From Sulfuricurvum sp. (GTDB lineage Bacteria > Campylobacterota > Campylobacteria > Campylobacterales > Sulfurimonadaceae): 64,000 nucleotides of DNA. The position numbers and the translations under genes were made by a program. The notes beneath the pieces were generated by a model. That model was not told the DNA's origin, did not search any database, and worked only from the letters and a program-made list of their open reading frames with translations. Shown in pieces: positions 13,294 to 40,955 of the stretch; position 1 is the stretch's first letter, and the number at the start of each line of letters is the position of its first letter. The DNA is taken from positions 310,001 through 374,000 of the forward strand of contig NZ_JAQUHV010000001.1 in assembly GCF_028681615.1 (NCBI RefSeq), given 5' to 3'.

Positions 13294-13707
13294 ATGGAAA
13301 AAACAATTCCAATCGACGAAGAATATCTTTTTGAAGGGCGTGCTATTGTTAGTGAAACGGATCTTAATGGGGTCATAACATTTGCCAATCGGAAATTTTG
13401 CGAAATCTCTGGCTACAGTGTTGATGAGTTGATCGGTCAGCCACATAATATCATTCGACATCCCGACATGCCTAAAGCGGGGTTCGAACAAATGTGGAAA
13501 ACAATCCAGGCCGGTACTATTTGGCACGGGTTGGTTAAAAACCTCAGAAAAGACGGTCGTTATTATTGGGTCGATACAGAAGTAAGTCCTATGTATGACA
13601 GTAAAGGTCAGCTAAAAGGCTATATGGCTGCTCGAAAACCTGCATCACGAAAGAATATTGAAGAGACGTCGGCGTTATACAAAAAAATGCTTGAACAAGA
13701 GCAATAG
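13294..13707 (+). CDS. Aer-type PAS-domain protein
   Basis: Stand-alone PAS sensor of 137 residues in the cytoplasm. The domain fills residues 12-120: VSETDLNGVITFANRKFCEISGY, then the Aer-type block IIRHPDMPKAGFEQMW (about 50-65), then NLRKDGRYYWVDTEVSPMYD. This block is the one that binds FAD in Aer-like redox sensors, so a flavin- or redox-sensing role is plausible but unproven. There is no transmembrane or output domain. AAGGGG precedes the ATG. It is the first gene of a four-gene phosphorelay locus; the next gene begins 9 bases after its stop. Confidence 0.85.
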   Translation: MEKTIPIDEEYLFEGRAIVSETDLNGVITFANRKFCEISGYSVDELIGQPHNIIRHPDMPKAGFEQMWKTIQAGTIWHGLVKNLRKDGRYYWVDTEVSPMYDSKGQLKGYMAARKPASRKNIEETSALYKKMLEQEQ

Positions 13708-13716
13708 GAGGTATGA

Positions 13717-15339
13717 GTGTTATTTTATAATCATAAACACGAATTCATGGGTATTGATGAAGAGGGGTTAAAGCTACTTAATTACACTACCTTAGAAGAT
13801 TTATTAGAAGTTTGCAACGATGTAGCCGACTTATTTGCCCAAGAGCCAGGTTATATCCATAACTTTAAAAGTTTCAGTTGGATTGATTTTTTACTTCATG
13901 CTGATTCTGAAGCCCGTTCTGCTATAGTTCACGGCAATGGACGCACCTTTTCCTGCACTCTTCAAGTGTACAATGTTTACTTTTGTTCTGAACCTTCTCA
14001 AAACAGCTATATGATCGACATGACCCATATACAGTCGATCAATGGTGATGAGGTCAAACCTCATACCATTACACCGAAACCTCATACCATTACACCGAAA
14101 CCTCAGCCTGCAACTCTGATAATACCGCACGAAGAAAAAGCTCCTATTATTCCGGCTATTTCTTCGTCTTTACCTAACTATACGCACATTACACCTACTT
14201 CTCTTAGTGAACCGGGGACATTGGATATCCCTTCCTATGCCGAAAACCGTTTTGAAGTACCATCTGAACCAGTAGAAGATTTATATGCAAAACTGACTCT
14301 TCCCATCGCAGATACAAAATTAGATCGGGAGACGGAAGTTCCAACCCCTCCTGCCAGAATACCGGTAGAGCAGCCTATGCTTGGAGATGTTCATTACAGC
14401 AAAGCCGAAAAAGAGTTTATCGACAATCTTAAAGTTGATAAATCATATCGTTTCGATCCAAATGTTGCAGCAAATGAATTAGGCCTTCCTGTTGATCTAA
14501 TTTTAGAGTTTATTGGCGATTTCATTCAACAGTCTTATGAATTTAAAGATGAACTTTTTGAAGCAGTTTTAAAAGGGGATACAAATAATATTAAAATTCT
14601 CTCCCATAAACTTAAAGGAGTTGCAGCTAACCTTCGTATTGAAGACGCGTTTGAAACACTCAGTATCATTAACACGTCAAGCGATCCGATTGAAATAGAA
14701 GCGAATCTCAAATATTTTTATGCCATCATTAATAAATTAGAGGGAAAAGAACCTACAGCAATTCAAGAAGAGGTTTCAGTCAAAGTGCCTAGTGAAGAAG
14801 AGATCATTAAACCCCCTCTAGCTACTGACTTATCATCAGATGATGATATTTATGAATTTACCTTTAAACATGACGAACCGTTATCTATTACAGAAGAAAA
14901 TCTTGTAATGTCAGACTCTACAGATGACACAAATGCACATGTAATTACAGAGTATGAATTCTTAGAAGATGCAAAAGAAGTAGATTTAACCTCAGAAGAA
15001 GTAAATAACGAATATACTTTGACAGAAGTTCCAATCCAGTCTCTCCATTATGATAAATTTTTTATTGCTGGACAGCTCGGTATTGAAAATGATTTCTTTG
15101 ATGAATTAATCAATGAGTACAAACATGATGCACTCAAAGCCGGAGAAGAAATTGCAGCCGCTATCAGTGCATTTGATACCCATTTATGGAAACGAACTGC
15201 CGCTCAACTCAAAGGGATCAGTGATAATCTCCGATTGAACGAAATTTCTGATGAATTGGCAATATTGTCGCTAACCAATGATGCACAGGAAGCCAAAAAA
15301 GCTTCCAAACGGCTCAACGGTTTTCTTGAACAACTATAA
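13717..15339 (+). CDS. Hpt phosphotransfer protein with one intact and one degenerate Hpt domain
   Basis: Soluble 540-residue protein. The GTG start at 13717 is preceded by a strong AGGAGG; a nearby ATG at 13713 is out of frame and stops at once. Residues 1-110 look like a degenerate PAS-type sensor domain. Residues 115-220 are a Pro/Thr-rich linker with a perfect duplicated HTITPKP. An Hpt domain follows at about 240-350 with His297 in LSHKLKGVAANLRI. A second copy at about 440-540 reads TAAQLKGISDNLRL, with Ala496 where the phospho-accepting His should be. Between them is an acidic linker. It probably relays phosphate between the kinase receiver and the separate response regulator downstream. 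Confidence 0.75.
   Translation: MLFYNHKHEFMGIDEEGLKLLNYTTLEDLLEVCNDVADLFAQEPGYIHNFKSFSWIDFLLHADSEARSAIVHGNGRTFSCTLQVYNVYFCSEPSQNSYMIDMTHIQSINGDEVKPHTITPKPHTITPKPQPATLIIPHEEKAPIIPAISSSLPNYTHITPTSLSEPGTLDIPSYAENRFEVPSEPVEDLYAKLTLPIADTKLDRETEVPTPPARIPVEQPMLGDVHYSKAEKEFIDNLKVDKSYRFDPNVAANELGLPVDLILEFIGDFIQQSYEFKDELFEAVLKGDTNNIKILSHKLKGVAANLRIEDAFETLSIINTSSDPIEIEANLKYFYAIINKLEGKEPTAIQEEVSVKVPSEEEIIKPPLATDLSSDDDIYEFTFKHDEPLSITEENLVMSDSTDDTNAHVITEYEFLEDAKEVDLTSEEVNNEYTLTEVPIQSLHYDKFFIAGQLGIENDFFDELINEYKHDALKAGEEIAAAISAFDTHLWKRTAAQLKGISDNLRLNEISDELAILSLTNDAQEAKKASKRLNGFLEQL
14059..14100 (+). repeat. Perfect tandem duplication of 21 bp inside the Hpt gene
   Basis: Two identical 21-base units (14059-14079 and 14080-14100) encode PHTITPK twice in the linker before the Hpt domain. 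The two copies have no differences, so the duplication is recent or maintained by slippage; it keeps the frame. Confidence 0.9.
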
Positions 15340-15363
15340 TTTTAAGGACATAGAGGATATCCC

Positions 15364-18300
15364 ATGCAATTAGGACTTAGAAATCGACTCCGTCTCATCA
15401 GTCTCTTACCGATTCTGATACTTTTCACCCTTGCAAGTTACTACGTTTTCAATGCGTATGTCAGTTATAAAGGGGCCGGACAGCTTCAAGTTAGACTTGA
15501 AGGAAATAAACAGCTTACCGAATTAATCAACAATCTCTCTCGTGAACGCGGAATGACCGTGATGTATATGGGAAATGCTTCTCCGGCAACCTTAAAATCA
15601 CTCCATGCCCAACGTCTTATTGTTGACAAAAAAATTGCTGCTTATGAAAAATTTTTGGCGTCAGTAGGACACACAGCCAATGCTGAAAGTGAGAGAGTAG
15701 CCGCACTTAATGACGTTTTGACCAAACTTCAAAATCAGCTCAATCAAACACGTCCTATAGTGGATTCTCAAAAAGCCAAATTTGATCAAGTCTTTTCAGA
15801 AATTTATAGTAAATCCCAAGAAAAGCTAATTAGCGAACTTGCCGAATTGGCTGGGCTCCATTTCGATGAAGAGATAAATGCTTTCTCATCCACATATCTG
15901 TCGCTTGTTCGTGCCAGTGAATACAGCAGCATCGAACGTGATTATATTACCTATCTTCTATCTCGCGCGACACCTTTAAGCAGTGATGAGTTGGACAAAT
16001 GGACTACTCTTATGAGTAAAGCCGATATGTTTACAATTGAGGGGATGAGTGATAAGAATATTCAAGCCAAACTTAAAGCCTCTTTATTCAGCGAAGACAA
16101 TACTGAGCTGTATCAAGATATTACAACTGAACGAAGTGGCATTCTACAAGTAAGTGCCAGTGGAAAATATCCGACTCAATCAGGTATCTGGTTTGCAATG
16201 ATCTCTGAAAAAATTGATGCCATTGACGGAGCTCAAAAAATTCTGATCGAGGCAATGGATAACCGGGCTTTAACCATTCAACAACATGCTGTTCAACTTC
16301 TTATAATTGCAATTTTCGTTTGGATATTAGCCGTTTTAGTTGCTGTACTGGGTTACTTCCTCTCAGCTGAAATTACCAAAAACATCCAAAACCTTGAGTC
16401 CGTTCTCAAACGCGTTGCAGAAGATACACATGATAGTGAGGCCGAAGCACTAAGCCATACCATCAATCTTGATACGGCTGAAGGTACCGCGCAAGCGTAT
16501 GCATTGCTCGAACGTATCATTGAACAAACGCTTAATGATAAACAATACGCGATGGAAGCGTCCGAAGCTAAATCGATGTTCTTGGCGAATATGTCTCATG
16601 AGATCCGTACACCATTGAACGGAATTGTTGGGTTTACTGAACTTTTAAAAGATACCGAACTGCATGATGAGCAACGCGAATTTATCGATATCATCGAAAA
16701 AAGTTCTGAAAATCTACTCGAAATTATCAATAATATCCTTGACCTTTCTAAAATCGAAAGCAATAAACTTGAAATCGAAGAGATTGTCTTTAATCCGATG
16801 GATGAGTTTGAAAGTGCCGTTGAAGTTTATGGTGTTCGCGCATCTGAAAAACATATCGACCTTGCATGTTATGTTGATCCTAGTCTTGAGCGCCCGCTAA
16901 AAGGGGATCCGACTAAAATCAAAGAGGTCATTATCAATCTCCTCAGCAATGCCGTCAAATTTACTAATAGTGGAGGGGCTATCAGCGTCGATATTCGCCG
17001 CGTAGAGTGTGATACACTTAATCGTGCTCGTATCCGCTTTCAGGTAAAAGACAACGGTATCGGTGTAACCAGTGAACAAAAATCCCGGATTTTTGAAGCC
17101 TTCTCCCAAGCAGACACATCGATTACACGTAAATACGGTGGAACAGGATTGGGCCTTACTATTTCGAGCCGTTTCGTTGAGCTCATGGGTTCTAAACTCG
17201 ATCTTGAAAGTGAGCCTGGCAATGGAACCACTTTCTTCTTTACCCTCGAATTTGAAGAGATCGAAACACTTAACGAACCGCTTAAAGGTTCATATTCTAA
17301 TATCAATGCTGTTATACTTGAAAGTAATACCAAGAAAAAACTTCAAAATACTTACCTTAAAGAGTATTTGGATTACTTCGGTGTTAGCTATACAACTTTC
17401 CATGAATTGAGTGAGCTAAAAATACTTGAACGACAGGTTAATTACGATCTGTTGTTCATTGATAACGACTATACTAATGAGAACGATATCCTTGCATACT
17501 CTTCTGCGCAAGAACAGTTGGTACTTATTACAAAATCGTACTACATGAAAAAAATCGATTCCATGGGAATCGAGATTTTCAAAGTTCTTTACGAGCCACT
17601 AAATAGCTCTAAAATCCGTACAACGTTAGATGCCTATGATGCAGAAGCGTTCAGTAACCGTAAACAAAAAGCAACCCGACGTAAAAAATTCGATGAGAAA
17701 AACTCTAAATTTGCAGCCAGTGCATTGGTTGCAGAAGATAATGTCATCAATCAAAAACTCATCCGTCGCACATTAGAAGATTTGGGTCTAGAAATCACCA
17801 TTGCCAACAATGGACTTGAAGCTTTTGAAAAACGTAAAAACGGTAATTTCGATATCATTTTCATGGATATCCAAATGCCGGTACTTGATGGGATTGAAGC
17901 AACTCAAGAAATTTTGGATTTTGAAGAGGATTATGCACAACACCATATTCCAATTATTGCACTAACAGCCAATGCACTCAAAGGTGATCGTGAACGATTC
18001 CTCTCTGCCGGTATGGATGAATATACTACCAAACCGTTAGTGCGTGCCGAAATCATTTCATTACTCAATAATTTTTTAGCGCATAAAATCATTGATATTA
18101 AAGCCGTTCCAAAATCGGTTGATGATATTCCTTTGTCTTCTGAATCTTCTTTAACTGATGAAAAGATCGAATCACAGCCAGAGGCTCTTATAGAATCATC
18201 TGAGGTATCCAACGAATCCTTAGCTGAAACTCTTGAGGAAAATAAAGATACAATTAATATAATCGCCCCTGAAATTTCTGAAGATATAGAAGCAGAATTA

Positions 18301-18735
18301 GATAAAGATGTGCCAACAAATATTGATGAATATGAAATTGCTCCAAGTACTGAAATGAGTTTACCAGAAATTCATCAATCGGCTTATGATGCAGATATAT
18401 TATTGGCTAAGCAAAATACATTAGAGATGAAGCTCTTTGTACGTATTTTAGATGATTTGGGCTATACCTATAAAAGTGTTACTACAACTGATCAATTTAT
18501 GAATGAACTTACAAATCATCACTATAAACTTGCATTATTTGATAAAACACTTCGAGAGCTAAATCTGAAGGATCTGTATGATATAATCAGATCGAAAGAT
18601 AGTGACACTTCACTTGTAATGCTTATTGATCCAAGCGTAACAGCGGATGCGAATGATAGTATGTATGTACATGAAATAATCAAAAATATCGTTAACAAAG
18701 ACTTACTCCGTCTTGTTTTTGAAAAATTTATTTAA
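15364..18735 (+). CDS. NIT-domain hybrid sensor histidine kinase with three receiver-like modules
   Basis: Membrane-bound sensor kinase of 1123 residues. There is a membrane segment at about 10-32, a periplasmic all-helical sensor resembling NIT domains (about 48-300, starting LSRERGMTVMYMGN), and a second membrane segment at about 308-335. HisKA carries phospho-His412 in MSHEIRTPLNG. The HATPase has NLLSNAVKFT, DNGIGV and GTGLGL (about 520-600). A pseudo-receiver follows (about 640-750; it ends LYEPL where KP is expected), then a canonical receiver (about 785-905) with phospho-Asp835 in FMDIQMPVLDG, an acidic linker, and a third degenerate receiver-like end (about 1010-1123, LALFDKTLRE). It starts 24 bases after the Hpt gene. 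The NIT call is by pattern and the ligand is unknown. Confidence 0.88.
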   Translation: MQLGLRNRLRLISLLPILILFTLASYYVFNAYVSYKGAGQLQVRLEGNKQLTELINNLSRERGMTVMYMGNASPATLKSLHAQRLIVDKKIAAYEKFLASVGHTANAESERVAALNDVLTKLQNQLNQTRPIVDSQKAKFDQVFSEIYSKSQEKLISELAELAGLHFDEEINAFSSTYLSLVRASEYSSIERDYITYLLSRATPLSSDELDKWTTLMSKADMFTIEGMSDKNIQAKLKASLFSEDNTELYQDITTERSGILQVSASGKYPTQSGIWFAMISEKIDAIDGAQKILIEAMDNRALTIQQHAVQLLIIAIFVWILAVLVAVLGYFLSAEITKNIQNLESVLKRVAEDTHDSEAEALSHTINLDTAEGTAQAYALLERIIEQTLNDKQYAMEASEAKSMFLANMSHEIRTPLNGIVGFTELLKDTELHDEQREFIDIIEKSSENLLEIINNILDLSKIESNKLEIEEIVFNPMDEFESAVEVYGVRASEKHIDLACYVDPSLERPLKGDPTKIKEVIINLLSNAVKFTNSGGAISVDIRRVECDTLNRARIRFQVKDNGIGVTSEQKSRIFEAFSQADTSITRKYGGTGLGLTISSRFVELMGSKLDLESEPGNGTTFFFTLEFEEIETLNEPLKGSYSNINAVILESNTKKKLQNTYLKEYLDYFGVSYTTFHELSELKILERQVNYDLLFIDNDYTNENDILAYSSAQEQLVLITKSYYMKKIDSMGIEIFKVLYEPLNSSKIRTTLDAYDAEAFSNRKQKATRRKKFDEKNSKFAASALVAEDNVINQKLIRRTLEDLGLEITIANNGLEAFEKRKNGNFDIIFMDIQMPVLDGIEATQEILDFEEDYAQHHIPIIALTANALKGDRERFLSAGMDEYTTKPLVRAEIISLLNNFLAHKIIDIKAVPKSVDDIPLSSESSLTDEKIESQPEALIESSEVSNESLAETLEENKDTINIIAPEISEDIEAELDKDVPTNIDEYEIAPSTEMSLPEIHQSAYDADILLAKQNTLEMKLFVRILDDLGYTYKSVTTTDQFMNELTNHHYKLALFDKTLRELNLKDLYDIIRSKDSDTSLVMLIDPSVTADANDSMYVHEIIKNIVNKDLLRLVFEKFI

Positions 18736-18753
18736 GATTGGGGAAATCCTAAA

Positions 18754-19131
18754 ATGGGTGAAAAAAAACTAAAAGTACTAGCGGTAGATGATGATATGAT
18801 TAACCTCAAGTTACTTAAAACTATGCTAATGAAAACCCCGAATGTATCACAAGTTGTAGAAGCAAAAAATGGAGCAGATGCGATTGGTATACTTAAATCT
18901 CAAAACGATATTGATATTATATTGCTAGATATTATCATGCCTGTGATGGGTGGTATAGAAATGCTCAAAGTCATACGTGCGGATGAATCACTACGTCAAC
19001 TCCCTGTCATCGTTCTCACAACAGATGAAACTAAAAAAGGGGAAGCATTGGAATGCGGAGCAAATGGTTTCTTAATGAAACCAGTCCGTGAAAAAGATGT
19101 TCTCGCAAAAATAGCACAACTCGCTCTCTAG
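18754..19131 (+). CDS. Single-domain CheY-like response regulator
   Basis: 125-residue receiver without output domain. The acid pocket is VDDD at 11-14, phospho-Asp59 lies in LLDIIMPVMGG, and the conserved Thr (VLTTDE) and Lys (LMKPV, about 108) are present. It is the last gene of the phosphorelay locus, 18 bases behind the hybrid kinase, and is therefore a likely final phosphate acceptor acting by protein contact, perhaps on a flagellar motor or other target. A hairpin with a T-rich tail follows. Confidence 0.92.
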   Translation: MGEKKLKVLAVDDDMINLKLLKTMLMKTPNVSQVVEAKNGADAIGILKSQNDIDIILLDIIMPVMGGIEMLKVIRADESLRQLPVIVLTTDETKKGEALECGANGFLMKPVREKDVLAKIAQLAL

Positions 19132-19241: not shown

Positions 19242-19703
19242 CTATAACTTCTGCCATGAACGTTTGTGTACTCGTATCGGTTGTGTACTAATATTGTGAT
19301 CGGTTACTGTTACATCCAACATCATCATCGTATCTTTACCCGTATTATCTGCTAAAATATTTGCACAATTAGGATTTTGATTTAAATAACGAAATGAATA
19401 CGCATAAGAGATTGCTATATCGAACATCTCATTTCCATTCGCTGCTCCATTTGCATTATAGACCGTGATATTTAGATTATTAAGACAATGATTTCCTGTA
19501 CGATCAAACCCTTGTGCTCTCATTACAGCAAATTCCGTTGCACTATCCGCCAAAAGCTCAGCTTGAGCCTGTAAATAATTATCTCCAATCGATTTAGATC
19601 CTGTTGAAGCGTTACGTAGTAGTAGCAAACCGCCTAAAGCTACAAGAACCACTACAAAAATCGCCAGTATCATCGCAAAAGCGGATCGTTTAGTAACGTA
19701 CAT
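19242..19703 (-). CDS. PilX/MshP-like prepilin-type protein
   Basis: 153 residues from the ATG at 19703, which has AGGAG 5 bases upstream; an in-frame ATG at 19766 lies deep in the previous gene and is less likely. A short basic start (MYVTKRSA) is followed by FAMILAIFVVVLVALGGLLL, a class III-like hydrophobic segment without the usual Glu at position 5, as in PilX/MshP proteins. The rest is an extracytoplasmic domain with two or three Cys. It is the last gene of a four-gene minus-strand operon and overlaps the preceding gene by 14 bases. Probably a minor pilin-like subunit near the pilus tip; this role is inferred from context. Confidence 0.7.
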   Translation of the reverse strand: MYVTKRSAFAMILAIFVVVLVALGGLLLLRNASTGSKSIGDNYLQAQAELLADSATEFAVMRAQGFDRTGNHCLNNLNITVYNANGAANGNEMFDIAISYAYSFRYLNQNPNCANILADNTGKDTMMMLDVTVTDHNISTQPIRVHKRSWQKL

Positions 19704-20628
19704 AGACTCTCCTTTCACGGCATATCGTTTGTGTTTCATCATCACTTGTACTGAGATTAGCGTCAAGCCCTCTCATACACACCTTAAGCCGCCAAACAAG
19801 ACCTCGGTCACTAACCCCTGGATTATTCATAAAATCAGTAGCATTATAATCTGCATAGAAATGGGCAACATTTTGCCCCAATAGATTGACCTTGTCAGCT
19901 CCTGAAAAATATCCATATCCATTATCCCATGGCCGGAAATTACTGTACATCCAAAAACTTCCATTGTCGTCGACTCTAAATGCATACCCAGTGCGTAATA
20001 AATATTTTCGGTGTCCATCGGTAGCATTATTTTCCGCATTCAAAGTAATTTGATTAGGATAGGCTACACTTGAAATTCTGTGATATCCTGCTTTGCCCTC
20101 TCCCACCTTATAATTAAAACGCGCACATGCATTTGCATCCAAACTATCGGCATCATAAATAGCTGAACCGCCTAAACTCGAAGATGGATATAACGCCCCG
20201 ATAATCGTGTCCGCTATAGATAAATTAGCATCAGACATGTTGAGAACATTCCCAGTCAATAATTGTGTTTCTTCACTCCATCCAGGACGACTTCCAGAAA
20301 TTCCTCTTAAACTATCGACATCAACGCCAATAAAAGCTACTGTAAAATCAGAAGGATTCTCTTGCGGAGGGCCATAACATGCTTGTACAGCTGGGTCGAT
20401 GTTTAAATTGACGATCGAGCTGCTGATCGCATTTTCAAAATATTTGGAAAGCTGTTCAAGAATATGATCGGCTTCCGCTACCCTCTTACTATACTCCTGA
20501 GTTCGATAAATCCCCTCATAATATTGACGTATAGCTTCTAACGCTATCCCTCCGACGATACCTAACACAACAATTACAAAGAGAAGTTCAATCATCGTAA
20601 AAGCTTTGCGTATTGTATGACTTCTCAT
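19690..20628 (-). CDS. PulJ/PilW/MshO-like prepilin-type protein
   Basis: 312 residues. The N-terminus RKAFTMIELLFVIVVLGIVGG is a class III prepilin signal (cleavage before Phe-Thr-Met-Ile-Glu, with Ala instead of Gly at -1), followed by a long globular domain with several Cys (ACYGPP, NACARFN, KVCMRG, TICRER). Its size and layout fit PulJ, PilW or MshO minor pseudopilins. It starts one base before the stop region of the preceding gene (ends at 20628/20629), so translation is coupled. Substrate of a prepilin peptidase not encoded here. Confidence 0.75.
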   Translation of the reverse strand: MRSHTIRKAFTMIELLFVIVVLGIVGGIALEAIRQYYEGIYRTQEYSKRVAEADHILEQLSKYFENAISSSIVNLNIDPAVQACYGPPQENPSDFTVAFIGVDVDSLRGISGSRPGWSEETQLLTGNVLNMSDANLSIADTIIGALYPSSSLGGSAIYDADSLDANACARFNYKVGEGKAGYHRISSVAYPNQITLNAENNATDGHRKYLLRTGYAFRVDDNGSFWMYSNFRPWDNGYGYFSGADKVNLLGQNVAHFYADYNATDFMNNPGVSDRGLVWRLKVCMRGLDANLSTSDDETQTICRERRVYVRY

Positions 20629-21315
20629 TTAATTGCCTTTGTTCGACTTGAAAAATGTCAACGTTGTATCAACACCCAAGGTTGCATCATAAAACCGTGT
20701 TACAACACGCTTCAGATGCGTCGGATTATTCAATGATCCATCGGGCGCCATATTGTTTGATGCTCCGAGTACCCAAGTAGCCGATTGGGTATTACCTAAA
20801 GTAGTTACACTAGAATTGACATAACGAACCTCATACGTTGCAGTAACAATATATGGTACACCACCAATCGGTGTAATACTTATTGGTTCACTTCCCCCAT
20901 TCAGCATCTCAATACCTTTTGAAAGATTACCGTCTGCCTCTCCTACTCCACTTCCGGCTACTGATGGTATACCACTGGGTACTGTAGTCATACACTGCAT
21001 TGAAGAGATATTTTCATCTGATCCCCAACGATATCCACCGGATCGTGTACAATTCAAATCGCCAGTATTTGGGTTCATAACCAAAGGCCCTGAACCTGAA
21101 GCGCTGTAGTTTCCATCCCACCGTGCCTGAAATTTATCCATCGTCCATCCTGCAAGACGTGCCATGACATCCTCATCTACCGCCATATTTTTAGATGCTT
21201 GATTCGCAACAGACATCATTGTAGGTATGGTAATCACACTGATAGCAATTATAACGATGGCAAAAATCAATTCGATCATTGCCATCCCCCCTCGCTTAAC
21301 GCTCTTATTTTGCAT
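20629..21315 (-). CDS. PilV/MshD-like prepilin-type protein
   Basis: 228 residues from the ATG at 21315, which overlaps the stop of the large upstream gene as TAATG; the longer frame to 21354 lies inside that gene. The N-terminus MQNKSVKRGG is followed by MAMIELIFAIVIIAISVITI, giving a Gly at -1 and Glu at +5 of the prepilin cleavage site. The C-terminal domain has a pair of Cys (DLNCTRSG, SMQCMTT). A minor pseudopilin of MshD or PilV type is the likely identity. Confidence 0.75.
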   Translation of the reverse strand: MQNKSVKRGGMAMIELIFAIVIIAISVITIPTMMSVANQASKNMAVDEDVMARLAGWTMDKFQARWDGNYSASGSGPLVMNPNTGDLNCTRSGGYRWGSDENISSMQCMTTVPSGIPSVAGSGVGEADGNLSKGIEMLNGGSEPISITPIGGVPYIVTATYEVRYVNSSVTTLGNTQSATWVLGASNNMAPDGSLNNPTHLKRVVTRFYDATLGVDTTLTFFKSNKGN

Positions 21316-24300
21316 TAACGGATCGCTGGAGCATAGTCGGTTGTACTTCTCCATGATCCCCCTCCTTCATCAGATTTCTTACTCGCTTTTTTATCTTCTG
21401 CGCCACCTTTGGCACTACCCGTTGCACCAATATCTGGAACAATATTGATATTAAAGCATGGATGAGTTAAACAATCAAGATGTGTTCCATCAGGATCCTG
21501 ATATGGTAATGCATTCACTCCATACCACAGCCATGGAGCCGTTTGAATATGAGCTTTAGCACTCTTCGTTGGTGCTTCATGCGTGAATGAATAAATCTCT
21601 ATCCCTTGGTTAGTAGGCATATTGTACGAGATTGGAGGAGCATTATTAGGCAAAGATGGGTTAATTACTGTGATATTTCCATCCCCATCCGTCTCATCCT
21701 CATGAAGTCGGTTAATATACCATAAAGCTTCATTTTTACTAGGATTCAAGATTGTTCCCTTAATATTTGGTTCATTATACACTTCGTACCATGCATTTGC
21801 CGTAAAAGGAACATCACCGAATACCCGTACATCACGAGGGATAATACGACCGTACACAAAAGTAGTGTTTCCATCTGCAGGCAGAACCACGGTGTAAGGA
21901 AGGTCCTGTATACCCGTCCCCAATCGTGAACCATTGATATCTGCTGTATGGTTCGGGGTAAAACTCGTATCTACATAATGTGAAGTTATAGAAATATTCA
22001 AATCACTGCCATTGACATCAAATGGATTTGCAGTTAAATTAACATCTCGTTGAAAATTGAACCGTAGATATTCTGATGAATTGGCATCCCAGCTAACCGT
22101 TTTGTTTCCATCAGTAAACCCAATTGACAAATTATTGATAATAGTTTCATTGGCATCAGGATAAATATAGGTTGATTTAACAACTACAGGAACTACTGTA
22201 ACATTATTCTCCCATAACGGATCAGATGCAAAGTTATGGGTTACATTTCCATTTTTATTAAGTGAATGCATTGTTGTATTAATACGTCCAGCCATTTGAG
22301 TAATTTCATTTGCTATATACGTAAATGTCCCTGGATTACCATTATTGTTTGTAATATTCAAGTCACTAAAATCAAAATGATGGGGAATAAATGTTACATT
22401 TTTATCGCCACATACATAAGCACCGTTAAAAGTTCCGTTCGCTAAACAACTATGCGGGGATAAATCCCGAGGATTATTGATATCCACATAGGACCAATTT
22501 TGGTCTTGAATACTAATATTTATTTTACCAACGTCATCAAATGTAAATCCTGCGACATCTCCTACAATTCCTGATTTAACCGATATCCCATTTAGCATAT
22601 CAAAGCTGTCTGCACTAAATGATGCTGTTCCTAGCATCCTTGGAACTGTGGTGCTATTTCGTTCTACGTCATTTTTATCATACATTTTAGTAACAATGGT
22701 GAAGATTGAATTAGCATTTGCAACATTATATGCAACAGTTGGTGTGGTATTGTCATAGTTATATGTATTAATCGACATATTGTAATCTTCAGCCGAACGC
22801 AGAAGATTAGGGAAAGCAGTATTAACAGAAGTAAGGCTGAAATAATTAGGACGTATTGCGAAATTATCGCTCGAACAATCCGGAAAAGCATTCAGAGTAC
22901 ACATCAAACAGCCAAGATCGTTATCATATAAAGGGTTATACCCAGGGCATGTGGTATCACCACCGCAGCTTTGCCCGTGATTAGCCGAATCACATGGTCT
23001 ACCATTCAATACTTGACACCGTTCATATGAACTCAATCCAAAAGCATCATAATATTTATTAGCAGAGTTAACACATTGTCCAAGACCAGCCAAGTTACCT
23101 ACCGTTGAACTGTTATAATAGCATTTGACTCCCGAATCAACAGCCAGCTGATTTAAATCTAAAAACGAAACCGATATACGGGCGTTTTTAGTCGCATACG
23201 CAGGAAAATTGATACTTTTTGTATCAATAGTATTACCATTAGTAATATTAAAAGTGGCAGGAAGTCCTGTAGTCGAATCATATAAAATTTCTTGGGTAGA
23301 ACAAATTCCATCCGACAGGTAAGGGATTACCACAAAAGACAAGGCACTATCAGAAGTTGCATTAAATGGAGTTGCTTGAGCGCTACCGTCCAGGTGTACC
23401 GCCGTCATCGATACCCCGGTTTGTGCAGATATTTTCGTCCCAATCACCTTACTCGTGTCATTATTATAGGCTGTAATATCTGTCCACATAGCTGTGTCAA
23501 TAACATCCGCATGTTCAGGCGGAGGTGTAACGGGGATTTCACCTCCCCCGCTTCCAGGTGATTTGACAATAACAGTTGCATTCGCTTCAGTGGAAGTTCC
23601 GTTGATCCTAACAGTGTTTATTAATGCAGAAGGATCAGGCGCTGATGGAGTCGTAATCGTATAAATGATACTTACCAATCCGGGAACTCCGTTATTCCCC
23701 GTTCGCTTAGGTACCGTTCCGCTACATGAAAAGGACGTGGCTTGGGGACTCCAACTACAACTAAACACATCCTGATTAATGATGGAGATATTAAAATCTA
23801 CTCCTGTAACTTCACTTCCTACTGTTCCTGTCGTTAGATTATAGTCATAGATTCTCAGTGTATCTGTAAAACTTGCACTGATCGCCGAACTCGTTTCATT
23901 AGCAAGAGTAATATTATATGTCAACGTTTGATTGACATCCGAATAAAGTTTAGACGGAGTTTTTACAATCAAAAGATCTGATGCTGCACCCGGAGGCGAT
24001 ATCGTGATATTGAAATCATCACTGTTCGAATTACCTCCATCATTAGTTGCATAGGCACTGAAACTGTAGGTATTTGTTCCTGAAGTATTTGGCGTTCCAC
24101 TTAGGACACCAGTCGATGTATCAAAGCTTAAACCTGTCGGAAGTGTACCGTTAAGATGGTATGATTCAATATCACTGCCACTCACATAGCTTGCAATATT
24201 CAGTGTATACGCTATGCCATTTACAATGTCTTGGTTTGGAATATCTCCCATGACGGGAGCTCCCGCATGAGTAATTGTCACTGCTGCTGTCGTATTAGAA

Positions 24301-24707
24301 ATGGTCACATTCTGTGCAGAGTTTGTATTATTTGTCAAATTAATGCTGAATGAAACATTTGAAGCAATCACTGCATTGGAATGAACCGTGACTGAAAACG
24401 GCTTATCAACAGGCGCAACATTTTTACTAAACGTAATCGTTCCTGATGTCGTGTTATAGTTAGTAGGTGATATTGCTGTACCGTTCGTTGTCTGGTAGCC
24501 AATTACAACATCTTTCTGATCCGGAGCTGCAGAAATAGAAAGACTAAAAGACACTACAATATCACCAGATCCTTCTGATATACTCGTTGTCAATGGAGTA
24601 AATGTAACGGTTGGATTATTACTTGATGCTCCCCATCCCGTCACCGCAAACATCATTAAAATACCAAAAGACATAATCCATCGTACAAAAAATTTATTCA
24701 AATTCAT
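21315..24707 (-). CDS. Large MshQ-like secreted protein with Calx-beta and Ig-like modules
   Basis: 1130 residues from the ATG at 24707 (AAGGAGGAT upstream). Signal peptide to about residue 27 (GWGA). Then a Calx-beta module (about 30-145, SISEGSGDIVVSFSL), a putative-Ig/cadherin-like module (about 150-240, GLSFDTSTGVLSGTPNTSGT) and a DUF11-like module (about 245-385). The large C-terminal region (about 395-1130) has a Cys-rich segment (SYERCQVLNGRPC, QSCGGDTTCPG, CLMCTLNAFPDC) followed by NFAIRPNYF, reminiscent of the MshQ/DUF6701 type. It is very rich in Asn and Thr. It is the first gene of an operon with three prepilin-like proteins, so a pilus-tip adhesin or tip-complex partner is the best guess. 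Confidence 0.72.
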   Translation of the reverse strand: MNLNKFFVRWIMSFGILMMFAVTGWGASSNNPTVTFTPLTTSISEGSGDIVVSFSLSISAAPDQKDVVIGYQTTNGTAISPTNYNTTSGTITFSKNVAPVDKPFSVTVHSNAVIASNVSFSINLTNNTNSAQNVTISNTTAAVTITHAGAPVMGDIPNQDIVNGIAYTLNIASYVSGSDIESYHLNGTLPTGLSFDTSTGVLSGTPNTSGTNTYSFSAYATNDGGNSNSDDFNITISPPGAASDLLIVKTPSKLYSDVNQTLTYNITLANETSSAISASFTDTLRIYDYNLTTGTVGSEVTGVDFNISIINQDVFSCSWSPQATSFSCSGTVPKRTGNNGVPGLVSIIYTITTPSAPDPSALINTVRINGTSTEANATVIVKSPGSGGGEIPVTPPPEHADVIDTAMWTDITAYNNDTSKVIGTKISAQTGVSMTAVHLDGSAQATPFNATSDSALSFVVIPYLSDGICSTQEILYDSTTGLPATFNITNGNTIDTKSINFPAYATKNARISVSFLDLNQLAVDSGVKCYYNSSTVGNLAGLGQCVNSANKYYDAFGLSSYERCQVLNGRPCDSANHGQSCGGDTTCPGYNPLYDNDLGCLMCTLNAFPDCSSDNFAIRPNYFSLTSVNTAFPNLLRSAEDYNMSINTYNYDNTTPTVAYNVANANSIFTIVTKMYDKNDVERNSTTVPRMLGTASFSADSFDMLNGISVKSGIVGDVAGFTFDDVGKINISIQDQNWSYVDINNPRDLSPHSCLANGTFNGAYVCGDKNVTFIPHHFDFSDLNITNNNGNPGTFTYIANEITQMAGRINTTMHSLNKNGNVTHNFASDPLWENNVTVVPVVVKSTYIYPDANETIINNLSIGFTDGNKTVSWDANSSEYLRFNFQRDVNLTANPFDVNGSDLNISITSHYVDTSFTPNHTADINGSRLGTGIQDLPYTVVLPADGNTTFVYGRIIPRDVRVFGDVPFTANAWYEVYNEPNIKGTILNPSKNEALWYINRLHEDETDGDGNITVINPSLPNNAPPISYNMPTNQGIEIYSFTHEAPTKSAKAHIQTAPWLWYGVNALPYQDPDGTHLDCLTHPCFNINIVPDIGATGSAKGGAEDKKASKKSDEGGGSWRSTTDYAPAIR

Positions 24708-24999: not shown

Positions 25000-25536
25000 A
25001 TGAATATCTCTCTCGTCGGACGCCACATCGAGCTCAGCGATGCAATTAAAGATCATCTGATGCACTCAATCGATACTCTCAGCAAATTTCATCTCGACCT
25101 TATCAGTGTCAATGCCGTTGCCTCGGCTAATGAACGAAACAAAGGGGTGACAATCGAATTTACGATTAACATCGCCGGAAAAAATACCGTCGTCATTACA
25201 CAGCGTGACGATGATCTCTACGCTGCGATCGACATTGCGATCGATCGTGCACAAAAAGCACTTCGCCGTTTGCATGATCGGATTTCCGATCATAAAAACG
25301 AAGGGCTTAACGAAGCTAAAAACGCTGCTGCAGCGTCAGTCGATCTGCATGCAGTCGGTGAGACGATGGAAGATGAAATCGTTCCGTCCGAACCGATTCT
25401 CTTTAAGCCTCAAGAAGTTGCAGAAGTAGTGGAAAAACTCAAAGAGAGTACCAAAGTATTCGAAGTATTTTATGACAATGACGGAAAAATGCGTGTTCTG
25501 TACAAGCGTACCGATGGGAAATTCGGACTGTATTAA
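25000..25536 (+). CDS. hpf: Ribosome hibernation promoting factor, long form
   Basis: Binds the 30S subunit and drives formation of inactive 100S ribosomes in slow growth. 178 residues. The N-terminal RaiA/HPF domain (1-100) starts MNISLVGRHIELSDAIKDHL, with the basic helix DIAIDRAQKALRRLHDRISDHK at about 81-102 (core AIDRAQKALRRL). A linker is followed by the C-terminal dimerisation domain (about 125-178, VPSEPILFKPQEVAEVVEKL and FYDNDGKMRVLYKRTDGKFGLY). Having both domains makes it the long type that dimerises ribosomes alone. GTGGG lies upstream. Composite repeat A begins 10 bases after its stop. Confidence 0.95.
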   Translation: MNISLVGRHIELSDAIKDHLMHSIDTLSKFHLDLISVNAVASANERNKGVTIEFTINIAGKNTVVITQRDDDLYAAIDIAIDRAQKALRRLHDRISDHKNEGLNEAKNAAAASVDLHAVGETMEDEIVPSEPILFKPQEVAEVVEKLKESTKVFEVFYDNDGKMRVLYKRTDGKFGLY

Positions 25537-25546
25537 TAACTATTCA

Positions 25547-25661
25547 TTCTTTTCTTTTTAATAAAGAAAAGAAGCAAAAGAAAAGCGCCCTCACACCAAA
25601 ACGCTGACGGTACGCTTTTGCCCTACGGCAAGCGACCTTGCTCTAGGTGTGGTGTGAGGGC
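25547..25661 (+). repeat. Composite palindromic repeat, copy A (hpf/recG junction)
   Basis: Module 1 is a hairpin TTCTTTTCTTT / AAAGAAAAGAA (25547-25557, 25563-25573) with a TTAAT loop, then a GCAAAAGAAAAGC tail. Module 2 is a perfect 12-bp inverted repeat GCCCTCACACCA (25587-25598) / TGGTGTGAGGGC (25650-25661) enclosing an inner GGC-rich hairpin (TTGCC-CTAC-GGCAA). The element is nearly the same as the reverse complement of copy B at 48771-48883. It lies at a convergent junction and forms the last 13 codons of recG. The first hairpin with T-tracts on both strands could terminate hpf and recG transcripts. Confidence 0.85.
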
Positions 25662-27452
25662 AGAATTATTTTTATCTAAATATTCTTTGACTTCTTTTAC
25701 AATATTCTCATCTTCTCCAATATCTGCCCATCGAAACTTTTTACCGCTTTGGATACTTCCCTCTAACAAATCTCCCGACAAACGAAATTTCAAATCCAAT
25801 GCGGCAATTTCAAATCCGCTGCGGCAGGAGCTAAACGCTTCGAGCCGCTCATTTTTACCGCTTTTGTTGGTATAAAGATAACAATATCCCTGTAATCCGG
25901 TGCGGCTTACCCGACCGCGTAGCTGGTGAAGCGTCGAGAGTCCTAACCGCTCTGCCCCGACGATCACGACAGTTGATAGTCGCGGGAGCGAAATCCCGAC
26001 TTCGACTACGGTTGTTGCCAGGAGAATATTTCCCTTTTCCCGGAACTCCATCAGCACTGCTTCTTTTTCTTTGTCTTTCCCGTGAGTAACATAAACATTT
26101 TCAAAATTCTTTTCCCAATATCCCCGTGCTTCGTCGATACTCTGGTAATTGATACTCTCACTCATTTCTACCAAAGGATAGACGATAAGGACTTGGTGAT
26201 GTTGTGAAATCTCAGAGCGGATATGTTCTAAGAGCTTTGAAAAATCACTCTTGCCGATGATACGTGTATCAATGTTTTTCGTAAACGGAGTTTGGACGAT
26301 CAGACTCACATCGATATGAGCCGAATCGATCATCGCCTGTGTACGTGGAATTGGGGTAGCAGAAAATTGCAAATAATGGGGTGATGTATCATTGTCGGTC
26401 AATTTGGTGAGAGCATGACGTTGAGCGGTGCCGAAACGATGTTGTTCATCCACCATCACCAAGCCTGCTTCGGGTAAATCACGGTGAAGCAGCGCATGGG
26501 TACCGATAATAAAGTCATATGCTTCTAACGGTCCTTTTTTCGTGGCGTTGGTCACAAGGGTAATCCGCAAATCGGGAAGGAACTTTTGGGCTTCCTCATA
26601 CAGCTGAGCAGCAAGAATCGTCGTCGGTGCCATCAAAATGGAGCGATACGGGCGCATAAGGACGACCGACGCTAAAATCACCATCGTTTTACCCGATCCG
26701 ACATCGCCGACAATCATCCGTCTTGAGGCATACTCACCACTCAGGTCTTTTTGGATTTCACTGATCGCATTTTTTTGATCTTGTGTCAGTTCAAACGGAA
26801 GGGATTTGATCCATGTATCTATATTACCTTGCGCATGGTGGCGGGTAGTATGATAACGGCGCTTTAGACGAAGACGCCGCATGTATTCAAAAAGCTCTGC
26901 AAATTTAAGGGCATCAAGCTGCGATATATCAAGCGGTTTCGGATGTTCAGGGAAATGGATTTTATAGAGTTTCGAAGCGATTTTTTCCGGAAGCCCGTCA
27001 TTGATCAGATTCTCAACACTTATCATCCTCTCAATCAAACGGCGCATGACATCGGCACGCAGCGATGTTTTGTAGATGGGGACAAGTGAACCGACGGCAC
27101 TGATTTTGACCGGATGGACAATCGTCCATTTACCAAGATCCCACTGGGCTTTACCGTAATAATAACCCCGCTCGCTTTTAGGAAACTGATGAATCATATA
27201 CGGTTTTGGATTGAAAATTATCCCCTCTATCACACAATCAAGGTTATGGGCAAAAAAAGTGATTTTGAGGGTTTTCGGAGTTCGTACGACGTGTTCTACC
27301 GTCGCATCAATAACACAGGTGGAATTATGTATCAGCTCACTGCTTAGACGACGATCTTCAAAAGATGTCGGGGCGATAAGCGAAAGTGCCGTGACACTTC
27401 CGACCCCTAAACGATGAAACTTGTCAGCATCCTCACTTGGTAACGATAGCAT
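25623..27452 (-). CDS. recG: ATP-dependent DNA helicase RecG
   Basis: Branch-migrating helicase that regresses stalled forks and processes Holliday junctions. 609 residues, shorter than the E. coli protein (693), as is usual in this class. The wedge/OB region is about 45-135. Helicase motif I is GDVGSGKT with Lys255, motif II is DEQH at 335-338, motif III is FSATPIPRT, and motif VI is QLRGRVSRTG. The last 13 residues (SALTPHLEQGRLP) are encoded by the palindromic repeat. The ancestral C-terminus therefore was probably replaced or extended by repeat insertion. The ATG overlaps the 3' end of the M16 gene by 20 bases. Confidence 0.95.
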   Translation of the reverse strand: MLSLPSEDADKFHRLGVGSVTALSLIAPTSFEDRRLSSELIHNSTCVIDATVEHVVRTPKTLKITFFAHNLDCVIEGIIFNPKPYMIHQFPKSERGYYYGKAQWDLGKWTIVHPVKISAVGSLVPIYKTSLRADVMRRLIERMISVENLINDGLPEKIASKLYKIHFPEHPKPLDISQLDALKFAELFEYMRRLRLKRRYHTTRHHAQGNIDTWIKSLPFELTQDQKNAISEIQKDLSGEYASRRMIVGDVGSGKTMVILASVVLMRPYRSILMAPTTILAAQLYEEAQKFLPDLRITLVTNATKKGPLEAYDFIIGTHALLHRDLPEAGLVMVDEQHRFGTAQRHALTKLTDNDTSPHYLQFSATPIPRTQAMIDSAHIDVSLIVQTPFTKNIDTRIIGKSDFSKLLEHIRSEISQHHQVLIVYPLVEMSESINYQSIDEARGYWEKNFENVYVTHGKDKEKEAVLMEFREKGNILLATTVVEVGISLPRLSTVVIVGAERLGLSTLHQLRGRVSRTGLQGYCYLYTNKSGKNERLEAFSSCRSGFEIAALDLKFRLSGDLLEGSIQSGKKFRWADIGEDENIVKEVKEYLDKNNSALTPHLEQGRLP

Positions 27453-36830: not shown

Positions 36831-37839
36831 TCTGCTCCATCTGGATCTTCTAAACGAGGGAAGAGTCCTCCTTGCCTTCTCGGGAGGGGTCGATTCAACC
36901 GCCCTATTCCATCTGCTCTGTGAGCATAAAATCGCTTTCGACATTGCACACGTTAACTACCATATGCGCGAAAACAGTGATGCTGAAGAAGCAAGTGCGA
37001 TCGCTTTAGCCCAAAAACACTCGATGCAATGCCATCTCCATTCCTGCCGTCTCGGCGGTGCCAATTTTGAATCCCGTGCCCGTGACGAGCGGTACCGATT
37101 TTTTAACTATCTGATGAGCAAACACGGATACACCTATCTCCTCACCGCACATCAGCTCAATGACCGTCTGGAATGGCTTATGATGCAGATGTGTCGCGGA
37201 TCTGGGCTGCCTGAAATGCTGGGGATCCGATCACACGACAAACGTGACGGAATAGAAATTTTACGCCCCCTGCTCGAGTGGGACCGTGAATCGATCGAAG
37301 CGTATCTGCACCGGCACAGCATCCCTCACCATATCGATGAGAGCAATGCGGATGAACGCTATACCCGTAATTTTTTTCGTCACCGTTTCAGTGCTCCTAT
37401 GATGCGTGAATACCGGGATGCGATTCGTCGAAGCTTCCGTTATCTGGAAGAAGATAACGACGCATTGATAGAAACAATGGACTTTACAACCATAGATCAG
37501 CTCTCCTATGCCCATAATCCATCCTCCCTCCGTTCCCTTCTCTACGGTATTGATACGTTTTTTAAAACGAACGGATATCTGTTAAGCCAACATGACAAAG
37601 AAGCATTAAAAGGGGGAGGAGAACACATTATCGGAAGACGTTTTGTTGTCTCTATTGATACAAACTATACGTTTATTGCTCCGTATGAGCATAGTGTTGT
37701 CATGGATAAAGGGTTTAGAGAAGAGTGCAGAGAGTTAAAGATCAGTTCAAAACTGCGAGGCTACCTTTACGGTGCCCCGAGGGCATATGATGTTATGCGT
37801 CGATTAAAAGGCGCTCTAACACCTCTTCGATTCGACTGA
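36823..37839 (+). CDS. tilS: tRNA(Ile)-lysidine synthase
   Basis: Modifies C34 of the CAU-anticodon tRNA-Ile to lysidine so it reads AUA; essential. 338 residues. PP-loop SGGVDS at 20-25, the HVNYHMRENSDAEE block at about 45-58, LTAHQLNDRLEWLMMQM near 107 and the RNFFRHR block near 185. The C-terminal TilS domain is short, as in other Campylobacterota. It overlaps rimO by 8 bases. Its last 47 bases run convergently into the 3' end of lon. Confidence 0.94.
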   Translation: MSDLLHLDLLNEGRVLLAFSGGVDSTALFHLLCEHKIAFDIAHVNYHMRENSDAEEASAIALAQKHSMQCHLHSCRLGGANFESRARDERYRFFNYLMSKHGYTYLLTAHQLNDRLEWLMMQMCRGSGLPEMLGIRSHDKRDGIEILRPLLEWDRESIEAYLHRHSIPHHIDESNADERYTRNFFRHRFSAPMMREYRDAIRRSFRYLEEDNDALIETMDFTTIDQLSYAHNPSSLRSLLYGIDTFFKTNGYLLSQHDKEALKGGGEHIIGRRFVVSIDTNYTFIAPYEHSVVMDKGFREECRELKISSKLRGYLYGAPRAYDVMRRLKGALTPLRFD

Positions 37840-40216
37840 CACCGATAATCTCGATTGCCCCTTTTACTTCATCCGGGATATCGTTCAAATCGCGATCATA
37901 ATTTTTTTGTGGAATCAATGCCAATTTCATCCCGGCACGATGCGCCGCAATCAATTTTTCTTTGAGTCCGCCGATCGGAAGGACATTTCCGGTGAGGGAC
38001 ACTTCACCGGTCATCGCGATATCAGCACGTACTTTTTTGTTAGCCAAAATAGATGCAATAACCGTGGACATTGCAATCCCCGCACTCGGACCGTCTTTAG
38101 GTGTAGCACCATCCGGAACATGCACATGCAGATCAAAGCGCTTATACACTTCACTCGCATCGAGCGGAGTATCACTTTCCCTCTCAGCAGGTGAAAGAGG
38201 GATGATCGAATGATCCACACTGATTTTCCCTTCATCGATTAACGTTTTAACGACAGAAAGTGCAATTCGGGCTGACTCTTTCATCACATCACCCAAACTA
38301 CCTGTAAGCTGGAGCGTTCCTTTCCCGTTAATGCGAATTGCCTCGATTTTCAGAACATCTCCGCCGACTGCCGTCCAAGCGAGCCCGTTAACGACACCGA
38401 TTCGGTCAACATGGTCGGTACGGTCGATCTCAAAAATCGTTTTTTCCAAAAAGTCTTTAAGATTTTTCAAACTCACATTGACTTTTTGAGTCGTCGGCTC
38501 TTCGAGAATCTTTTTCGCCGCTTTACGGACGATATCCGCCACACGGCGGCGAAGGTTACGGACTCCCGCCTCACGGGTATGTTTTTCGATCACTTCAGCC
38601 AAAGCCGTTTTCGAAATGGACAGTTCGCTCGGTTTAAGCCCGTGCTTTTTCAACTCTTGGGGAATCAAATATTGTTTTGCGATTTGGAATTTCTCCTGCG
38701 GCGTGTAACTGCTCACAGAGATAAATTCCATACGGTCGCGCAACGGTCCCGGAATCTGTCCTACATCATTTGCCGTAGCGATAAAAATCGCTTTGGAAAG
38801 ATCGAGATTGAAATTGAGATAATAATCTCTAAAATGGGTGTTTTGTTCCGGATCGAGAATTTCGAGCAATACCGCCGTCGGATCGCCGCGATGGGATTTT
38901 GCCACTTTATCGATCTCATCGAGGACAATGACCGGATTCATTTTTTTCGCTTCGATAACCCCTTGAACAATACGCCCCGGCATCGCACCTATGTAAGTAC
39001 GGCGATGTCCACGCAATTCATTGACATCTTCGAGTCCACCCAATGCAATCCGCACCAACGGCCGTTTAAGCGCTGTTGCAATGGAATTGGCCAACGAGGT
39101 TTTACCGACACCCGGAGGGCCCGCAAAACAAAGGATCGCACCGCGTCCCTCTTTATCGGCAATTCCGCGCAGCTCCAGAAGCTCTTTGACCGAGAAAAAT
39201 TCTAAAATACGCTCTTTCGGTTTTTTGAGAGAGAAGTGATCTTTGTTGAGCTGATTTTCGACATCGTGAATATTGAGCGGTTTTTTCGACTCTTCACCGT
39301 ACGGGATTTCCAATACCCATTCAAGATAGGTCTGAATCATCCCAGCATCAGCACTGTCAGGGTGCATACGGGCAAAACGTTCCAACTGTTTGTTGATCTC
39401 TTTATACGCATCCGGATGCATTTTCTCTTTTTTGGCTTCGAGCTTTTTACGGAATTCTTCGATCTCTTCGTCACGATGGGTATCGGTGCCAAGCTCTTTT
39501 TGGATCTGTTTGAGCTGCTCTTTGAGGAAATACTCTTTGTTCACCTTTTCAATACGAGTGTGTACTTTTGAACGGATCTCTTTTTGAAGCTTATTCGCTT
39601 CGGTCTCTTCGATCAATTCATCGATTAGCATCAAAAAGCGTTTTTCAGGATCACGCTCGATAAAGAGTTTGTACGCATTCTCTTTCTTGATTTTAATCGA
39701 ACTGCAAATGAGATCGACGATTCGGTTATACTCGTGATTTTCTTCGATCGTACGGAGCAAATCGGGAGGGAAATAATTACTTACCTGCGACAAAGCACGG
39801 ACTTTTTCGCGTAGTACTTCCAAAATCGCATCCATCTTCAGCTCATTCACTGCATGTGATGCAATCAAATCGACATGAGCACGTAACGGATTATCATTGA
39901 CCATTTCGATTACATGCCCTCGGGCAAGCCCTTGGAACAATACTTTAATCCGCCCGTCAGGCAGAACTACTTTACGCATGATCGAACCGATGACTCCGGC
40001 ATCGTAAATCGAGCCGCCCTCGCGTTCTCCTTCATGTTCCGGTTTTACCGGGCATACAATAACGAGAGAATTATTTTCAATCGCTTCGGCTGCCGCAGCA
40101 ATATTTTTTTCATCGTTCAAAAAGAGCGGTGAAATCATAAATGGGTATAGAAAAAGCTCATCTTCCGCAATAACCGGTAGATTTGTCGGAAAAGAGCTGT
40201 AGTTACTAAGTTGCAT
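37793..40216 (-). CDS. lon: ATP-dependent protease Lon
   Basis: Cytoplasmic AAA+ serine protease for misfolded and regulatory proteins. 807 residues. The N-terminal substrate domain is about 1-200, coiled coil 200-290, Walker A GPPGVGKTS near 365, and Walker B IVLDEIDK. The protease domain carries Ser711 (DGPSAGIAM) and Lys754, which are 43 residues apart as in E. coli. No CIRCE or HrcA-type operator was seen upstream. The 3' end overlaps convergent tilS by 47 bases. It is 19 bases downstream of bamD. Confidence 0.97.
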   Translation of the reverse strand: MQLSNYSSFPTNLPVIAEDELFLYPFMISPLFLNDEKNIAAAAEAIENNSLVIVCPVKPEHEGEREGGSIYDAGVIGSIMRKVVLPDGRIKVLFQGLARGHVIEMVNDNPLRAHVDLIASHAVNELKMDAILEVLREKVRALSQVSNYFPPDLLRTIEENHEYNRIVDLICSSIKIKKENAYKLFIERDPEKRFLMLIDELIEETEANKLQKEIRSKVHTRIEKVNKEYFLKEQLKQIQKELGTDTHRDEEIEEFRKKLEAKKEKMHPDAYKEINKQLERFARMHPDSADAGMIQTYLEWVLEIPYGEESKKPLNIHDVENQLNKDHFSLKKPKERILEFFSVKELLELRGIADKEGRGAILCFAGPPGVGKTSLANSIATALKRPLVRIALGGLEDVNELRGHRRTYIGAMPGRIVQGVIEAKKMNPVIVLDEIDKVAKSHRGDPTAVLLEILDPEQNTHFRDYYLNFNLDLSKAIFIATANDVGQIPGPLRDRMEFISVSSYTPQEKFQIAKQYLIPQELKKHGLKPSELSISKTALAEVIEKHTREAGVRNLRRRVADIVRKAAKKILEEPTTQKVNVSLKNLKDFLEKTIFEIDRTDHVDRIGVVNGLAWTAVGGDVLKIEAIRINGKGTLQLTGSLGDVMKESARIALSVVKTLIDEGKISVDHSIIPLSPAERESDTPLDASEVYKRFDLHVHVPDGATPKDGPSAGIAMSTVIASILANKKVRADIAMTGEVSLTGNVLPIGGLKEKLIAAHRAGMKLALIPQKNYDRDLNDIPDEVKGAIEIIGVSRIEEVLERLLIDA

Positions 40217-40235
40217 TAAAAAAATTCCTTAAATC

Positions 40236-40955
40236 TTATTTGCTCTCATTGTCTTCCATTGAGATGACACTGCGTGTTTTCGGGATCATAAAATCATACC
40301 AGCTGCTGCTGCCGTCCCCTTCGAACATTTCACGGTACCATGGAATATTCGCAGTGACCACTTCATCCGGTTTAATCCATGTGACCGGAGCCATAGAACG
40401 ATAATAAACCGCACCTTTTGGTTTATCCAAACGTTCGTACAATTGGGCGATCTGTTCATCGAGCACCCCACGAGCGAGTTGCAATTGTGTTTCCATCGTG
40501 TTGACTTGAGAAATATAGATCGAATAGGGATAATTCATTTTGAATGTATCAACCCCTTTTAGGGTCTCATCGATCAGCCCTTGATCCCGTCCAGGATTCG
40601 GCAACGCCAAAAATTTTGCTTTGACTTTCAAAAACTCGGCAAACTCACGTCCCTCTGGAGTTGCATAACGTCGGATATACTCATCTAAAAAGTGCTCGGC
40701 TAATAAATATTCATCATGCGCCATATGCGCCTGCGCCATAATCATCGTCGCTTCTGCCAAAAATGGAGACCCAATATGTTCACTTTGCAGGGAACTAAAA
40801 TAGCTGTCCGCTTTTTCCAAATTCCCATTGGAAACCGACGTAACCATTTTTTCATACCAATATTCTGCCGGTTTGTTATACTCTTCCACTTCTTTACTGC
40901 CGCATCCGGTCATTAGGATAAGGAGTGCCATCGCGACTAACCACGTTTTAATCAT
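40236..40955 (-). CDS. bamD: Outer membrane assembly lipoprotein BamD
   Basis: TPR lipoprotein of the BAM complex that inserts beta-barrels. 239 residues. Signal peptide with lipobox LMTGC, Cys18, then YNKPAEYWYEKMVTSVSNGNLEKADSYFSSLQSEH (core residues about 25-55) and tandem TPR-like helices to about 190. The EYLLAEHFLDEYIRRYATP and MNYPYSIY blocks are BamD-like. It is followed after 19 bases by lon in the same orientation, the common order in this class. It is divergent from fliW. Confidence 0.93.
   Translation of the reverse strand: MIKTWLVAMALLILMTGCGSKEVEEYNKPAEYWYEKMVTSVSNGNLEKADSYFSSLQSEHIGSPFLAEATMIMAQAHMAHDEYLLAEHFLDEYIRRYATPEGREFAEFLKVKAKFLALPNPGRDQGLIDETLKGVDTFKMNYPYSIYISQVNTMETQLQLARGVLDEQIAQLYERLDKPKGAVYYRSMAPVTWIKPDEVVTANIPWYREMFEGDGSSSWYDFMIPKTRSVISMEDNESK

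Follow-up and report, generated by a model that had tools for sequence, protein, structure and literature searches.

The closest described counterparts of the locus analyzed here are the MSHA pilus genes mshD-O-P-Q of Vibrio and other proteobacteria, the PilY1 systems of Myxococcus and Pseudomonas, and the Cts transformation system of Campylobacter. The MshQ component of the pilus has been listed without a known function (PMC9815625). In Myxococcus, PilY1 and the minor pilins prime the pilus and occupy its tip (PMC7541494), and a capping pilin is marked by the absence of Glu5 (PMC12040237). The Campylobacter machine genes are arranged as ctsRDPXEF (PMC10893306); the published lengths of CtsR, D, P, X, and E are 105, 472, 202, 195, and 519 aa, respectively, while the C. 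jejuni genes proC and ctsT are cj1076 and cj1077, the latter encoding 100 aa (PMC8308473). In addition, type IV pili with MSH-like genes have been reported for Thiovulum (PMC9938260).

The analyzed window is a stretch of 64 kb (C1:310001-374000) of a 2.66 Mb genome assembled in 38 contigs. Its minus strand carries, at positions 24707-19242, a coupled operon encoding an MshQ-like adhesin (Q) and three prepilins (V, W, and X). The four genes comprise Q (21315-24707, 1130 aa, with a hydrophobic N-terminal signal), V (20629-21315, 228 aa), W (19690-20628, 312 aa), and X (19242-19703, 153 aa), all on the minus strand. The stop codon of Q overlaps the start codon of V in the sequence TAATG, V and W abut, and the genes for W and X share 14 bases. 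The adhesin, the three prepilin-like proteins and the TAATG coupling had all been proposed in a first-pass annotation and were confirmed. No FimT/GspH-like fourth minor pilin was found within the operon of the window; a further prepilin lies directly after X in seven other loci. The operon is adjoined by hpf (plus strand) and recG (minus strand) at 25000-27452, and the same neighbors are found in relatives. Since Q-V-W-X and its neighbors recur in many genomes, the ORFs are not arranged in this way by chance. On the other side of the operon, positions 13294-19131 encode a PAS-like protein, a 540-aa protein, a hybrid histidine kinase, and a response regulator; the kinase and the regulator recur near lon and the Q-V-W-X operon in relatives.

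According to the Pfam scan, Q contains a Calx-beta domain at residues 31-146 (24270-24617, minus strand; PF03160, E 5.4e-11) and an Ig-like He_PIG domain at residues 153-237 (23997-24251, minus strand; PF05345, E 2.5e-11), both above the cut-off. The translation read directly contains a Cys-rich stretch at about residues 531-612 (22872-23117, minus strand), preceding residue 612. The protein is rich in Asn (10.4%), Thr (11.0%), and Ser (10.2%). These features agree with the modular, Asn/Thr-rich protein with Calx-beta, Ig-like, and Cys-rich parts that had been predicted earlier. The DUF11-like part of that prediction was not found by the Pfam scan in Q of the window, and DUF11 is present in 6 of 25 Q relatives. 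The heads of these 25 relatives are diverse and include DUF11, Calx-beta, cadherin-like, Big_9, LamG, PA14, CUB, and pentaxin modules. Structural analysis of Q was less informative. A PDB sequence search with Q gave nothing significant, and the predicted structure has a mean pLDDT of 61, with better values at residues about 395-1090, which in the model resemble Ig-like sandwiches strung in a row. The PDB matches of the model were middling (Z at most 7.0), and no specific family is named on this basis.

As for the kinship of Q with MshQ, the DUF6701 Pfam model (PF20419) gave no match to Q, even with E allowed up to 1, or to anything else in the same genome, and it matched 4 of the 25 relatives. 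The core of Q (residues 611-826; 22230-22877, minus strand) is shared with beta- and gammaproteobacterial loci, as shown by tblastn matches. A profile constructed from C-terminal sequences of Q and relatives matched more than 40 proteobacterial MshQ-type proteins with E values of 1e-8 to 5.9e-32, and the sole profile match scanned contains DUF6701 at 2e-61. Because the profile of the relatives matches these proteobacterial proteins, one of them being a DUF6701 protein, the core of Q is homologous to MshQ-type proteins. Thus, the kinship expected from the first-pass annotation was recovered through the relatives and not by a direct match of the DUF6701 model. The C-terminal part of Q differs from that of the proteobacterial proteins, whose FGxY...RE tail it lacks. 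The locus also resembles the PilY1 systems in the combination of a large adhesin with PilV/W/X-type pilins and in the proposed priming and tip role; in contrast to these systems, Pfam scans of Q and its relatives gave no match to a PilY1/PilC family domain.

The three small proteins have prepilin sites. Those of V (G/MAMIE) and W (A/FTMIE) contain Glu5, whereas none of the X proteins whose site was scored has it, a pattern that would make X the capping pilin. V is PilV/MshD-like, although its score with the PilV equivalog is 16.6 bits, below the cut-off of 52.2; W is PilW/MshO-like and matches TIGR02532 above the cut-off. X is assigned as PilX/MshP-like by the profile, the Glu5 pattern, and the predicted fold. 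The AlphaFold model of X has a mean pLDDT of 85.6. Among solved structures, it lies closest to minor pseudopilins and competence pilins, with Z scores of 6.1-8.1; unrelated folds reach 5.3 at most, with the exception of a single phage protein (6.5). No useful match for X came from Foldseek by itself. The C-terminus of X carries a conserved PIRxHRRTxQKL motif, which is absent in six Q-less loci, the Campylobacter-type L100-L103 and L105 and L106 of family f9. The motif may be a mark of docking to Q, and this is suggestive only, because X retains it in L099, a locus without Q at the operon place.

Compared with MSHA, the locus shares the MshQ-type core, the MshD/O/P-like pilins and, elsewhere in the genome, an MshL-type secretin with an MshE/G-like motor and platform. 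It differs in the gene order, which is Q-V-W-X here, and in that the operon is located on contig C1 and the machines on contigs C2 and C4. The content of mshD-O-P-Q in a different order, as initially described, is therefore present. Encoded in the genome are three secretins, three pairs of a GspE/PilB-type ATPase and a platform protein, one prepilin peptidase, one ComEC, and two ATPases of the PilT family that pass the cut-off. Two of the machines are MSHA-like: that on C2, with its own Q-V-W-X-H genes adjoining, and that on C4, with no adjacent pilins. The C4 secretin passes the cut-off of the NCBIfam MshL model TIGR02519 (267.4 bits against 250.2), whereas the C2 secretin scores 225.4 bits and falls under it. 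The extension ATPase and the platform protein of both machines were identified by PF00437 and PF00482, which are general and not MSHA-specific models, and a small ATPase at the expected position of MshM gave no match to MshM-specific models. The third machine is the type II secretion system on C6, which is accompanied by GspG/H/I/J-like ORFs of its own and by a weak match to GspK. Secretins, ATPases, platform proteins, and a peptidase are thus encoded in the genome, which, with the PilT proteins, ComEC, and a type II secretion system besides the two MSHA-like machines, is not devoid of type IV pilus or type II secretion machinery.

Five prepilin-like ORFs followed by a priA-like ORF were also noted at C2:146-151 kb, with ComEC about 5 kb further, at C2:156 kb; the five ORFs are candidate major pilins. 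In the window, three coupled ORFs at 42232-44302 are PilM/PilN/PilO-like by size and layout, and this assignment obtained no Pfam support.

With several machines in one genome, the operon might supply the tip of the C2 machine or of the C6 type II secretion system, as all three machines are encoded together and pilins could be shared. This is very unlikely. The C2 machine has its own set at C2:102-108 kb, an arrangement that recurs in other genomes, and C6 has the pseudopilin-like ORFs mentioned above. The C2 set has the same order as the operon in the window, and its V and X are related to those of the window (E 1e-8 and 4e-17), W being weakly related; it differs in adjoining its own machine, in having a fourth pilin, H, and in a Q with another N-terminal half. 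Furthermore, three other genomes of the same genus (G137, G170, and G288) each contain one X and one C4-type MshM and so keep the operon with only a C4-type MshM, which favors pairing the operon with C4. Because the genome also has the C2 machine, this proposed pairing rests on genome comparison.

X and the machine co-occur in the order. X was found by its profile (A3) in 227 of the 299 genomes, and MshM in 217; both occur in 202 genomes and neither in 57. The Fisher test gave p 1.6e-27, a value that ignores shared ancestry and is inflated by it. The discordant genomes include 25 with X and no detected MshM, and 15 others. In families f1, f6, f11, f18, and f20 the operon occupies the same chromosomal place, lon-bamD-fliW-proC-[Q-V-W-X]-hpf-recG, with local rearrangements, and this locus is old. 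In the window, the genes from lon to proC, which lie directly beside the operon in relatives, are set apart from it, at 37.8-42.2 kb (37793-42225). The nearest loci in the named collection belong to Sulfuricurvum MAGs, which makes Sulfuricurvum the probable genus of the genome.

This chromosomal place connects the operon with the competence genes of Campylobacter. In a genus of family f11 (g29) that is Campylobacter-like by gene order and lengths, the order is lon-bamD-fliW-proC-V-W-X, and Q is absent; proC is followed by V-W-X in L100-L103, and V of this genus has about 97-104 aa. V is thus the positional counterpart of CtsT. In one genome of this genus, the machine (L187) encodes proteins of 99, 469, 201, 188, 537, and 395 aa in an order matching ctsR-D-P-X-E-F, and its genes are homologous to those of C4. 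Its D, P, E, and F are closer to C4 than to C2, but its X is not; the E gene of L188 is slightly nearer to C2, and the f11 machines L175-L177 clearly match C4. The assignment of the g29 loci to Campylobacter rests on these matches of gene order and length to Cts. The window and the Campylobacter system are therefore alike in chromosomal place, machine order, and lengths, and differ in that the Campylobacter-type loci have no Q and a shorter V, whereas the operon in the window has Q and full-length pilins. Because Q-less V-W-X genes stand at the proC-ctsT place and the machine matches ctsRDPXEF, the Q-V-W-X operon looks like a fuller form of the Cts competence locus, and the best-fitting machine for it is, by homology, a counterpart of the Campylobacter cts transformation system. 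The first-pass statement that no pilus of this kind is well described in free-living Campylobacterota needs to be revised accordingly, and also in view of the pili reported for Thiovulum.

The same evidence can be read as indicating that the main role of the operon is in a short competence pseudopilus, as in C. jejuni, with Q as a DNA-capturing or accessory protein and not a surface adhesin. The proC-ctsT place and Cts-type machine, the ComEC gene, and the persistence of V-W-X in genomes without Q at the operon place are consistent with this reading, which is possible, though on balance unlikely. The adhesion-type modules of Q vary widely among genomes, and the presence of two motors of the PilT family points to a dynamic pilus. 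In addition, Q is absent from the loci that match the competence-proven arrangement of C. jejuni; therefore, it would not be needed for DNA uptake there.

The comparison of Q sequences indicated a mosaic ancestry. Over residues 151-610 (22878-24257, minus strand), Q shares 54-74% identity with a genome of another genus (G230) versus 15-28% with four genomes of its own genus, pairwise identities near 20-25% being taken as background. Over residues 991-1130 (21318-21737, minus strand), the identity is 43-56% within the genus and about 20% to G230. A Sulfuricurvum MAG is intermediate, with 46% identity over residues 401-610. In the tree of residues 401-760, Q grouped with G230 with a support of 100/99, and a clade of Q with three Sulfuricurvum MAGs was rejected (AU p 4e-4). 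In contrast, the V-W-X tree rejected the grouping of the operon with G230 (p 2.6e-47) and placed it with Sulfuricurvum, and the tree of residues 991-1130 likewise placed Q with Sulfuricurvum and rejected its grouping with G230 (p 2.5e-56). Identities and trees thus mark Q as a mosaic, in which residues 151-610 match another genus and residues 611-1130, together with V-W-X, follow their own genus. The head of Q has been exchanged between genera. As the DNA identity between Q and that of G230 in the common part is about 66%, the exchange is old.

The mosaic also bears on whether Q might be a free cell-surface or secreted protein whose position in the operon is incidental. One genome (G075) carries three Q-like genes in tandem at C2:176-187 kb of its own assembly, with no pilin genes adjoining, which speaks for this reading. 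The overlap of the Q stop codon with the V start, the Q-V-W-X order conserved in many genomes, and the C-terminal part of Q that follows the genus, like V-W-X, all argue against it, and this explanation is extremely unlikely.

Taken together, the operon probably provides the core type IV pilus of the order, which is MSHA-like and Cts-homologous, with its priming and tip complex, whose head is exchangeable. By analogy with PilY1 and the minor pilins in Myxococcus, we infer that X, W, and V would start the filament and carry Q outward. X, lacking Glu5, would cap the filament with W and V beneath it, and Q would be displayed beyond the X cap. The V-W-X-Q complex would start pilus assembly on the C4-encoded machine and then be carried outward at the tip. 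Residues 611-1130, the base of Q, would dock on V-W-X, the genus-specific C-terminal part being the proposed docking part; outer Q (residues 1-610) would be the exposed, exchangeable binding head. PilT retraction could then pull on a bound target, and the same pilus may also take up DNA.

As for the target, the first-pass annotation suggested minerals or sulfur. That the head binds minerals or elemental sulfur is improbable: the relatives are sulfur-oxidizing genera, and Sulfurovum indicum upregulates MshL on elemental sulfur (PMC10045233), the sole pointer of this kind, but the tip pilin occurs in most of the order, also in Campylobacter-type genomes, and the heads vary without an evident substrate signature. 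A bolder extension of the tip-complex reading is that a single pilus common to the order holds on to surfaces as well as importing DNA, swaps its own tip head between genera via its DNA uptake, and has the Campylobacter Cts system as a reduced, headless descendant; this is speculative and rather doubtful.

What appears to be new here is an MSHA-like tip operon at the Cts competence place with an adhesin head exchanged between genera. The locus connects an MshQ-like protein with a competence system for which genetics exist, genomes that have Q and genomes that lack it form a natural series, and the sequence comparison points to residues 611-1130 of Q as the proposed docking base and residues 1-610 as the proposed head. 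For these reasons, the division of labor between adhesion and DNA uptake becomes testable in a phylum with little-studied type IV pili.
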